From: Acidobacteriota bacterium
GTDB taxonomy: Bacteria > Acidobacteriota > Terriglobia > Acidiferrales > UBA7541
Direction: 5' to 3'
Assembly: GCA_003140295.1 (NCBI GenBank)
Contig: PLJR01000368.1
Span: 14,159-46,638 of the forward strand
DNA length: 32,480 bases
Part shown: positions 27,707 through 32,480 of the stretch, piece by piece
Position numbering within the stretch: the stretch's first letter is position 1
Layout: the number at the start of each line of letters is the position of its first letter
Made by a program: the position numbers and the translations under genes
Notes under the pieces: model-generated
The model's input: only the letters and a program-made list of their open reading frames with translations
Database searches by the model: none
Told to the model about the DNA's origin: nothing

Positions 27707-30700
27707 TCAGCGGCCGGTCGTTACCTTGGCATTCCCGGCCCGTTCCGCGCGCTGCGAATCGCCCTCCGGCTCGAGCGATTGGCCGCACCACGATTCCTGT
27801 GACGGGCACAAAAACCGGTATTCGCAGGTTTTGCAGATAAACCCCGGCTTAATAGGAAATTCGCGGGCGCGGATATCGGCTGCCACTTCCTGGATGGCGC
27901 CACGCACCTGGTGGAGCGCATTTTCATCGCGAGTTGCCGCGACCACCTCGTTCGTTTGTAAGTTGTAGTAGACCAGCCGCACGGGCTCGAGTTCGAGATC
28001 TTCCCGCGCCGCCATCGCGTAAACGCTCAACTGCAGATCCTTCTGCGCTTGCGCTGCGGTCCTCGGCTTGCCGGTTTTGTAATCGACGATTTCCACTTCG
28101 CCGGCAGCGACCTGGTTGACCTGGTCCATGCGCCCCAGCACTTGCACGCCATTATCCAGTTCCAGCGTGAAGCGCCTCTCCAGCGCCAGCACGTTCGGTG
28201 GAGCCGCTACGCAACTGGCGTGAAACGCCCGCAACTGCGCAACACCGTCATCCAGGTAACACTGTTCCTGGTAATCGTCCTCAAATCCCGCCGACGTCCA
28301 CTCACGCCGGAAGATGGTCTCCAGCTCTTCGCATGGCAGCGTCAGCCCCTTGCGCATCGCCGCAATGAATTGCCGGATGGTTACGTGCATGACATTGCCA
28401 AACGTTGTAGCCGCCCACGGCCCTCCGCGAATCCCCCAAACGTTGTTGAACAGGTATTTCTGCGGGCATTTCCAATACGATTCGATTGCCGACGCGCTCA
28501 ATTGCAGCGGCTCGAAAACCGGAGGCCGGTACTGCGTCGCCCACGCTCCAATGCGCGAATGGACCCGCGAATGGACCCGCGAATGGACCCGCGCATCGGC
28601 TTGTGAATGTCCGCCAGCTTCCTCATATTTGTCCGTAAAAAGCTCATCCCCGAATAAAAGTTGCTCGCCGGCGCGCCCGCCGCTCTTGACAGGCGTCGCC
28701 GGAACCACCGGAGCCAATTGCTTCACATTTTCCCGGGCGATTCTTGGCGCGCTCAAAATGTCGTCGAGAAAAACCGAAGGCTTCGAGCGCTTGTGCACGA
28801 CGGTCGAAAGCGTCAGTCGTTCGCGCGCGCGCGTCACCGCTACATAGAAAAGGCGGCGCTCCTCCTGGATATGAAAATCGCCCTTGGGCACTTCTTCCTT
28901 CATCAACGCTTCCGGAAACTCCAGCACGCGGCTGCGCGGCACCATCGGGAATCCCCGAGCGGTCAGCCGCAGCACGAACACATGATCGAATTCCAGCCCC
29001 TTGGCGGCATGCACGGTCATCAACTGGACCGCATCGCCCCCCTCCTGCTCGAGATTGATCTGCCCGCCGGCCTGTACGAAGTAATCGAAATACTCCACGA
29101 ATTCCGCCAGCCGCGAGGTCTCACTTTTCAGTTGCCACTCGAGCACGAAATGACGCAGCCGGTCGACATAGCGCCGTTCGGTCGGCGACACCACGGAATG
29201 AAGTTCCAGCCATTCGGCGAGCGCGCCAAATAATTCCACGGCGGTCAACCGCCAGGCCCGCTGTCGCAGATCGTGGATGTCCAGGACCAGTGCATCCGTG
29301 CGGCGTTCGATTCCGTTGAACGGTAGCTCGCCCTGCCGCGCTTGCAATGCGTCCCACAGCGCCGGCTGGTTCTTCGAGGTTTGTTCGCAAAGCCTTACTA
29401 AGTCCGCCGCTTCCAGGCCCCACGCCGGTGCTGCCAGCACGCGCGCACACGAAACATTATCCGAGGGTTTCGCCACCAGCCGCAGGTATGCCAGGACGTC
29501 CCGAACCAGCGGATGCCCCAGAATGGACAGATTTCGAATGACGAACGGGATCCCTCGTTCTCCGAGAGCCTCCACCAGGGCGTCGCGGTGATTGTGAATG
29601 CGATACAGCGCCGCGAAAGTGCGCCACGGCTGGCCGGCCGCGTGGAGGCGTGCAATTTCGGCCGCAATCCAGCGAGCTTCTTCGCTCGCCGACGCGAACT
29701 CCACGATGCGAACCTTCTCGCCGTCAGGCTTATGCGCCGCCAGCTCTTTTGCTGGCAATAGCGGCGAACGCTCCATCAGGCTGGCCACTTGTGCGGCCAC
29801 GCGCAAGATTCGTCCCGTAGAGCGGTAATTATCGATCAGCGGCCGCACAAAACGCGCCGCTGCCTGGGTGTTGGATCTGGGCACGCCGGCAAAGCGCTGC
29901 AGAAATATCGTAAAGCTGCCGAACGACGCGCCGCGAAACCGGTAAATCGCCTGGGCGTTGTCCCCTACGGCAACGATGTTGCGTTGCTCCCCACCCAGGC
30001 GCCAAAGCAGCTCGATTTGTGCGACGTTGGTGTCCTGGAACTCGTCCACCAGGATGTACCGAAAACGCCGGCGCACACTCGCCGCAAAAGCCGGGTCAGC
30101 ATCGAGCGCGCGCACTGCGTCCAGCAATTGCATACCAAATGTAAGCAGATGGCGTTCGCGCAACAGCCGGTCGCTCGCCCGGTAAGCCCGCGCAATCTCC
30201 TGCTGCCTGCCAATCTCTTCTTTGCGCAGCCGGCGCTCGTCCTCGGGAAGCGCTTCGCGCTCGCTCGCATAGTGCTCCGCAAGCGACGCCACGTAATGTT
30301 CGTAATCGTCCGGAGTGACTAACTCGTCCTGGCAGCGCGAGAAAAACTGCACGAAGTCGCCCAAAAACTGTCCCGGCTCGGCCAGCCGGCGGTACCGCTC
30401 GAGCGCCAGAACCGATAGATTGCGGCGGAGCAGTACCCAGTGGTCCTCCTTTTCCAGAGTCTTCAGTTGCGGATCACGTTCGAGCAGCAGGCTGTTGCAG
30501 AACCCGTGAAACGTTCCCAGGCATACGGCACGTCCTCGTTCGCCGGCCGTTTTGGCGACCCGGTGCTTCATTTCCGCCGCTGCTTTGTCGGTGAACGTCA
30601 GGCCGAGGATCGCGGTGCCAGGAAGTTCCGGATCGCAGGCCAGCAGGTGCCGGATGCGCTCGGTGATGACACGTGTTTTGCCCGTGCCGGCGCCCGCCAC

Positions 30701-30873: not shown

Positions 30874-31686
30874 CTAGAAAAGTTTCACCCGGCCTTTACG
30901 CAGCTTGGTTTTGAACGTCCAGAACGAATCGGTTCCACGTATCGCGATGCGCTTTAATTCATAGGGATCCTTGGGCGGCAGCCTGTTGATGCGCGAGCCG
31001 ATCCGCAGCGCAAACTCAATTCCGTGTTTCCGGAAGCAATTGCGCATCGCCTGGTTGACGCTTTGCTCTCTGGGCATGCGGCCATAAGGGTACGCGAAGA
31101 CTCGCGTAAACGGGCAACCCTGCTCTTCGAGAGCGCGCACACATGCGGTCACATCCGCTTCGATTTGTGCCGCCGAATAATGCTCATAGTTTTCGTGCCG
31201 GCAGGAGTGCAGCCCGAATTCAATCTGCCCACCAGCGATCTCCTGTATGTCCTGGTAGGACATCAGCGATTCGTTCGCGCCGTCCCATTGGTTTACGCCC
31301 CCGATAAAGCCCACGGGCAGCAAAATGGTGGCCTTCACTTGATGTTTAAGCAGCAGCGGGTGCACCAGTTGAACCGTCCTCAAGTACGCGTCGTCGAATG
31401 TCACCAGGATCGGTTTCGCCGGCAAATCATGACCGTGGTTCAAGGCGTCGCTTAGTTCTGAAAACGAGATCGCTGTGTAGTTCTGATCTTTGATAAAAGC
31501 GAGCTGGCGATCCAGGCGGTCCGCGGATATCGTCAATGCGTCGTTTTCTTGTGGAGAAACCTTATGATAAAGCAAAATAGGCAGGCCTTGAGGCGCCGGC
31601 ACGAACAAGCTATAGCGGTAGACCAGCCACACGAAAAGCAACAGCGCAGCGCCGGTTATCCACCATATTCCCGCCGGCGATATCAA
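30874..31686 (-). CDS. Membrane-anchored polysaccharide deacetylase (NodB-like, CE4)
   Basis: N-terminal TM ITGAALLLFVWLVYRYSLFV; LPILLYHKVS; LVTFDDAYLRTVQLVHPLLLKH; GLHSCRHENYEH metal-binding motif; FAYPYGRMP. TTG start inside a tandem repeat. Confidence 0.87.
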   Translation of the reverse strand: MISPAGIWWITGAALLLFVWLVYRYSLFVPAPQGLPILLYHKVSPQENDALTISADRLDRQLAFIKDQNYTAISFSELSDALNHGHDLPAKPILVTFDDAYLRTVQLVHPLLLKHQVKATILLPVGFIGGVNQWDGANESLMSYQDIQEIAGGQIEFGLHSCRHENYEHYSAAQIEADVTACVRALEEQGCPFTRVFAYPYGRMPREQSVNQAMRNCFRKHGIEFALRIGSRINRLPPKDPYELKRIAIRGTDSFWTFKTKLRKGRVKLF

Positions 31687-31729
31687 CGGCCCCCCAGTGA
31701 TATCAACGGCCCCTCGGCGATATCAACGG
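31670..31729. repeat. Three 20 bp tandem repeats (core gatatcaacgg) spanning a gene junction
   Basis: cccgccggcgatatcaacgg / ccccccagtgatatcaacgg / cccctcggcgatatcaacgg, exact 20 bp period, invariant 11 bp core. Confidence 0.92.
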
Positions 31730-32478
31730 TATGTTTGCTGCCTGCCTTTGTAAATCAGCAAGCCGATCAGCATCGACATAGCCGCGAAAACTACAAGCTG
31801 CGCTAACCCATCCGCGTCAGGCACGCAAAATTCCCCTCGTGGCTCAATTGCAAAGTAATCGAGCCCCGCCAGTGCCAGCACCGCCGCCACGAAGCCTGGC
31901 CGCACTCCCCAGAACCAAACCGTGGCTCCTATGGCCGCCAGCAGAACTACCGAATAATTCCAGGGGTTATCCCCGCCGAGTAGAACCATCAGCAGCAGCG
32001 CCACGGACACGGCCGCAGTCGCCAGGGCATAACCAAAAAGGCGAGTTTGATACACTCGACGCACGGCAGCCGCGCCCGGCAACCGCAGCGGACGCAAAGT
32101 CGCGCCCAGGGCCGCGCCGGACACCGTGGCCCACTGTCGGCTGGCCCCCTGTTGTTCGCTTTCGATCGGGGCCGGCGATGCTGTTTTCCCCGCCACCTGC
32201 GATCTTGCACTGGCCTCGGTCCGCCGAAGCTCCAGCACTTTAAGAAATTTAACCATCGAGTACAAAGATGAGAACAAACTCCAGACCAAGCCGACGGAGC
32301 CATCTCTGAAGAATCCTTTCAAGAAATACATACGAAAGAACGTCAATGGGAAGCGTGCGGCTGCTCCCAAGAAACTCGGGCGCGGTTGGTGCGCCGAGCA
32401 TTCCAGCGCCGCCGCGCTCGTGTAGCGATTGAACTTCTCGAAATAATCGGCAATATTGGCGTAGGAATAGTTGTACAT
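31723..32478 (-). CDS. Glycosyltransferase family 2 (WaaE-like) C-terminus fused to DUF4118/KdpD-like four-TM domain; 5' end outside the window
   Basis: YNYSYANIADYFEKFNRYTSAAALE...FPLTFFRMYFLKGFFRDGSVGLVWSLFSSLYSMVKFLKVLEL resembles GT2 C-termini; then FGYALATAAVSVALLLMVLLGGDNPWNYSVVLLAAIGATVWFWGVRPGFVAAVLALAGLDYFAIEPRGEFCVPDADGLAQLVVFAAMSMLIGLLIY resembles DUF4118. Confidence 0.75.
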   Translation of the reverse strand: MYNYSYANIADYFEKFNRYTSAAALECSAHQPRPSFLGAAARFPLTFFRMYFLKGFFRDGSVGLVWSLFSSLYSMVKFLKVLELRRTEASARSQVAGKTASPAPIESEQQGASRQWATVSGAALGATLRPLRLPGAAAVRRVYQTRLFGYALATAAVSVALLLMVLLGGDNPWNYSVVLLAAIGATVWFWGVRPGFVAAVLALAGLDYFAIEPRGEFCVPDADGLAQLVVFAAMSMLIGLLIYKGRQQTYR

Positions 32479-32480
32479 CG

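Follow-up and report, generated by a model that had tools for sequence, protein, structure and literature searches.

A tandemly copied stop/start overlap that probably gave a polysaccharide deacetylase gene its ribosome-binding site in an Acidobacteriota genome

Architecture of the repeated overlap

On the minus strand of the window (the whole stretch of 32,480 nucleotides analysed here), two genes are joined by a chain of three TTGA stop/start overlaps, raising the question of how such a chain arose and what it does for the downstream gene. Direct reading of the sequence at 31670-31729 gave three 20-bp units in an exact 20-nt register, which on the minus strand from 31729 to 31670 are CCGTTGATATCGCCGAGGGG / CCGTTGATATCACTGGGGGG / CCGTTGATATCGCCGGCGGG. 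Unit 1 (31710-31729) carries the stop codon of the upstream ORF, in which a GT2 glycosyltransferase is extended by a DUF4118 domain (GT2-DUF4118), unit 2 occupies 31690-31709, and unit 3 (31670-31689) carries the start and first codons (MISPAG) of a polysaccharide deacetylase. The units were 85-90% alike in ungapped comparison and make three full copies; TRF reported a period of 20, 2.7 copies and a score of 85, and the core CCGTTGATATC was invariant throughout. A TTGA lies at 31726, at 31706 and at 31686, once per reading frame, and G-rich runs lie 5' of the second TTG (GAGGGG) and the third (GGGGGG). Mini-ORF 1 (31703-31726, minus strand; TTG ATA TCG CCG AGG GGC CGT TGA) begins with a TTG that overlaps the GT2-DUF4118 stop and has no SD sequence, and mini-ORF 2 (31683-31706, minus strand; TTG ATA TCA CTG GGG GGC CGT TGA) has the SD-like GAGGGG upstream. 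This reading confirmed the layout given in the original prediction: a three-unit array with the upstream stop in unit 1, two seven-codon mini-ORFs and the downstream start in unit 3.

Because 20 is 2 mod 3, the TTG of each unit and the TGA of the following one automatically share a frame. A chain of mini-ORFs comes with any NTGA-containing repeat whose period is 2 mod 3, barring another intervening stop; one period length in three will therefore produce it. Unit copy number is likewise unable to alter either protein, because the first unit retains the stop and the last retains the start. An NTGA overlap is present for each adjacent frame pair in the array, as it is for the homologous gene pair of a Bacteroidia relative (L070, below), and the two full-length genes themselves do not overlap, with about 36 nt between the GT2-DUF4118 stop and the deacetylase start. 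In addition to what had been predicted, we found that the two genes share one frame, in which the TGA of unit 1 is the sole separator. Read-through to a GT2-DUF4118-deacetylase fusion was considered and rejected; there was no sign that it is programmed, because related junctions are either separate genes with differing spacers or direct fusions.

A genome search for the unit with 0-1 mismatches returned only the three units of the array. The remaining matches have 3 mismatches, and a control search with the reversed pattern gave an equal total number of matches, so no copies beyond chance were found elsewhere in the genome. Searching 31300-32100 against the Rfam covariance models produced nothing at E<=1, and the array was rejected as a known RNA element.

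Flanking genes and related junctions

The deacetylase gene (30874-31686, minus strand, start TTG 31686) encodes a 270-aa protein with an N-terminal membrane anchor and a PF01522 match (E=3.2e-15). Among 84,980 species genomes, a pattern scan found relatives in a Bacteroidia MAG (L070, 42% identical) and a Cytophagales MAG (L071, 40%), and the C-terminus GTDSFWTFKTKLxKGRV was conserved among the deacetylase relatives. In the alignment, the ATG of the L070 and L071 proteins (M followed by I or L, then a membrane segment) stands opposite the unit-3 TTG (MISPAG, then a membrane segment). This TTG is the sole start codon in the open stretch preceding the membrane anchor, and any in-frame start further downstream would truncate the anchor. 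The start had been placed at the third TTG from the letters alone; with the initiator methionines of two homologues (40-42% identical) aligned to it, homology supports the TTG of unit 3 as the deacetylase start. The deacetylase was closer to the two Bacteroidota proteins (40-42%) than to the best own-phylum match among the genomes searched (38%), and for this reason the GT2/deacetylase pair may have been horizontally transferred.

The upstream ORF (31723-32478, minus strand, stop TGA at 31723-31725) encodes the C-terminal part of the GT2 (about 32230-32478) and, continuing in the same frame, a DUF4118 membrane domain, for which Pfam gave a match at 31732-32031 (E=2e-16); the N-terminal part of the GT2 lies outside the window and matches PF00535. 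The GT2 C-terminal part is 38% identical to the L070 GT2, a protein that ends 7 residues past the match, whereas the window GT2 continues in frame for about 165 residues with DUF4118. GC content is 62% in the DUF4118 segment versus 51% in the GT2 part and 55% in the deacetylase. GT2 and DUF4118 (KdpD-type) are thus joined in an in-frame fusion, with a domain missing from the homologous L070 GT2 and an inserted part whose GC exceeds that of either flank; among the matches in the family genomes searched, no comparable fusion was seen. A target-site duplication around the DUF4118 segment was rejected, as there is no copy of the unit at the other end of the segment. The DUF4118 segment is flanked on either side by the GT2/deacetylase neighbourhood seen in L070, which makes a double assembly chimera unlikely. 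Just outside the window (G000:C358:46639-46640, beyond position 32480), a two-base N gap splits the GT2 gene, and the frames differ across it; the true gap may be of another length.

In L070, the gene preceding the deacetylase is also a GT2 glycosyltransferase (PF00535), and the two genes overlap once, as ATGA, at a junction that has neither the array nor DUF4118. No close orthologue of the junction, and no second genome carrying the array, was found in 3 same-genus, 89 family (own included) or 396 phylum genomes. More distant GT2/deacetylase pairs (L010, L011) are separated by a short plain spacer. In L071, the deacetylase abuts another gene, not a GT2, that looks like a transporter gene. At two further loci (L004:1402-3165 and L007:1426-3177), a single protein of about 585 residues combines a GT2 domain with a polysaccharide deacetylase domain. 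As overlap (L070), spacer (L010, L011) and fusion (L004, L007) all occur, homology indicates that the GT2/deacetylase pair is recurrent, closely linked and variously joined. The suggestion that a single ancestral stop/start overlap had been duplicated in tandem gained support from the nearest homologous pair (L070), with its one ATGA and no array, and the comparison thus supports derivation of the array from one overlap.

Predicted SD pairing and mRNA structure

Pairing energies were computed against the canonical anti-SD ACCUCCUUA, an assumed sequence that may differ from the 16S of this genome. On that assumption, predicted pairing was -2.8 kcal/mol for TTG1, -7.2 for TTG2 and -9.3 for TTG3, the deacetylase start; among random sites, pairing of -7 is attained by 4.1% and of -8 by 2.6%. 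The SD-like GGGGGG responsible at TTG3 (31690-31695, minus strand) is the tail of unit 2 and ends 3 nt 5' of the deacetylase TTG. A single unit would leave CAGGCAGCAAACATACCG 5' of the TTG, a sequence that lacks an SD and has a predicted pairing of -2.8 kcal/mol, and the unit-3 tail as upstream sequence would give -5.5, weaker than the tails before TTG2 and TTG3. All four variable columns of the repeat fall in the G-rich tail and none in the 11-nt core (p = 0.026, a post hoc value from three units).

Units 2 and 3 are also predicted to form an mRNA hairpin (31673-31710, minus strand; -20.7 kcal/mol) that begins about 13 nt past the GT2-DUF4118 stop and takes in the SD together with most of the codon at which the deacetylase starts. 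Folding of the 45-mer alone gave z -2.2; in longer contexts z ran from +1.2 to -0.8, no better than shuffled sequence. Such a hairpin, if formed, could insulate the genes from each other, or ribosomes translating mini-ORF 1 could open it.

Frequency of repeats and overlaps in the genome

The draft genome comprises 4.1 Mb in 418 contigs, is 73% complete and has a gene content suggestive of Acidobacteriota. We surveyed 571 kb (the window plus sampled contigs) for tandem arrays with a period of at least 10 and a score of at least 50, using crude ORFs as gene calls. This yielded 71 arrays (about 124 per Mb), 8 of them with a score of at least 85 and 24 not wholly within ORFs. Chains of at least two occurred in 5 of the 71 and chains of at least three in 3, this array counted, and 24 of 216 co-directional gene pairs had NTGA junctions. 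As a rough estimate, this scales genome-wide to about 500 arrays, which would occupy about 0.6% of the sequence, and to about 170 NTGA junctions; about one array would be expected by chance over an NTGA junction, and in about a third of cases its period would be 2 mod 3. Among the arrays listed, the one described here was the only one recognised whose first TGA ends a gene and whose last NTG begins one. The repeat itself is not a chance similarity, and its presence is ordinary for this genome.

Origin and effect of the array

The account that we hold to be somewhat probable is that the overlap was copied by slippage with both proteins intact, that the mini-ORFs are a by-product, and that the deacetylase gained a new ribosome-binding site. 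We infer an initial state in which an ordinary 4-nt TTGA overlap joined the glycosyltransferase gene, extended here by DUF4118, to the polysaccharide deacetylase gene, after which replication slippage duplicated the surrounding 20 bp twice. With the stop always supplied by unit 1 and the start always by the last unit, both proteins would have stayed unchanged, and for that reason the copying would have been tolerated; the two seven-codon mini-ORFs would be an arithmetic by-product of the 2 mod 3 period. Since duplication sets the G-rich tail of each unit before the next TTG, the likeliest effect is a repeat-born ribosome-binding site: the tail of unit 2, just 5' of the deacetylase TTG, would be that site and the probable main effect on expression, with the deacetylase initiated directly and less reliant on coupling to the upstream gene. 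Going by the predicted pairing, the array probably gave the deacetylase a ribosome-binding site. Counting against this reading are the short 3-nt spacing from G-run to TTG and the position of the same G-run in the predicted hairpin, which could hide the site. If the reading is correct, slippage at a stop/start overlap would be a simple route to a downstream ribosome-binding site with neither protein harmed, as the tail of each unit would become the SD of the next while stop and start remain with the first and the last unit.

The original prediction had proposed a translational-coupling relay or a copy-number rheostat, with ribosomes restarting at TTG1, TTG2 and TTG3 in turn through the mini-ORFs and the number of units tuning deacetylase yield. 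In such a scheme the mini-ORFs would also melt the hairpin. We consider this unlikely. The chain is automatic at a period of 2 mod 3, and chains of at least three occur in 2 other arrays of the 571 kb; TTG start codons are weak, TTG1 has no SD, and ribosomes would presumably be lost at each step. A relay is also unneeded, because TTG3 is itself preceded by a strong predicted SD. What speaks for it is that neighbouring genes are coupled by 4-nt overlaps (PMC6728339, PMC10666635, PMC12548453), and that in the case of phage fr the ribosome takes the nearest start 3' of the stop (PMC12548453). MIRU elements offer a precedent for short ORFs that deliver ribosomes (PMC12548453). Moreover, a relay would be a way to preserve coupling, because little coupling would be expected across about 36 nt leading directly from stop to start, 38 nt costing 80-100% of reinitiation in E. 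coli (PMC10666635). The predicted hairpin might instead act in the opposite direction, hindering reinitiation just past the stop and uncoupling the genes like a ribosome termination structure; such structures are enriched at stop-start gaps of at least 25 nt and reduce reinitiation (PMC7518266), and the -20.7 kcal/mol hairpin starts about 13 nt after the stop. Insulation of this kind is nevertheless quite improbable, given that the hairpin would also conceal the deacetylase start, that tandem repetition of a palindromic core (TGATATCA) always yields such a hairpin, and that its advantage over shuffled sequence disappears in longer contexts.

The array may also be neutral debris of slippage at a tolerant junction, with expression unaffected, as the abundance of arrays in this genome and the third or so lying at least partly outside ORFs would allow. 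We give this little credence: the array occupies the region where deacetylase translation initiates, and copying strongly shifts both the predicted SD strength and the stop-start distance. Equally doubtful is a reversible switch based on repeat length, in which one unit would leave the genes coupled and two or more would make the deacetylase independent, via the repeat-born SD or a mini-ORF relay, the proteins remaining intact throughout.

Comparison with known systems

Among overlapping or closely spaced neighbouring genes, the spacing met most often is the 4-nt NTGA overlap (PMC12548453). As in known overlaps with termination-reinitiation coupling (PMC6728339, PMC10666635, PMC12548453), TTGA here links a stop to the next start, three times over, where the L070 pair does so once (ATGA); the array differs in its three tandem copies and in the distance of about 36 nt between the real genes. 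By analogy, the known element that comes closest, as a repeat whose short ORF is linked through a 4-nt overlap, is the mycobacterial interspersed repetitive unit (MIRU), which lies at gene starts, contains a short ORF coupled by such an overlap and leaves proteins intact after insertion (PMC12548453). The array shares with MIRU an internal short ORF and a 4-nt overlap with a neighbouring gene, but MIRU are dispersed and apparently mobile, whereas the 20-bp unit occurs at one locus only in this genome and does not form a dispersed family. There was no sign of mobility, with no second locus here and neither an empty nor an occupied site seen in the relatives searched, among which no close orthologue turned up. 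The TAACTGA direct repeats of Beggiatoaceae are likewise tandem and intergenic, carry stops in all three frames, lie beside start codons and can overlap the upstream stop; they have a 7-bp unit, 169 loci and little SD character, in contrast to the 20 bp, single locus and G-rich SD-like tail seen here (PMC4679880). In the Salmonella mgtC-mgtB region, the short intergenic ORF mgtQ promotes translation of the next gene, mgtB (PMC8092293). As there, short ORFs lie here between two operon genes, and translation of such an ORF could open structure over the next start; mgtQ is one regulated ORF with a demonstrated role, whereas the two mini-ORFs described here are repeat-born and known from the sequence of one genome.

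Other short tandem repeats were seen in this genome. A further 20-bp tandem repeat with a GTGA chain lies just 3' of an ORF (L096:2823-2868), and within the window a perfect 12-bp tandem repeat of 3.3 copies is located at 28554-28593 in a UvrD-family helicase/nuclease gene, where it gives RVHSRVHSRVHS.
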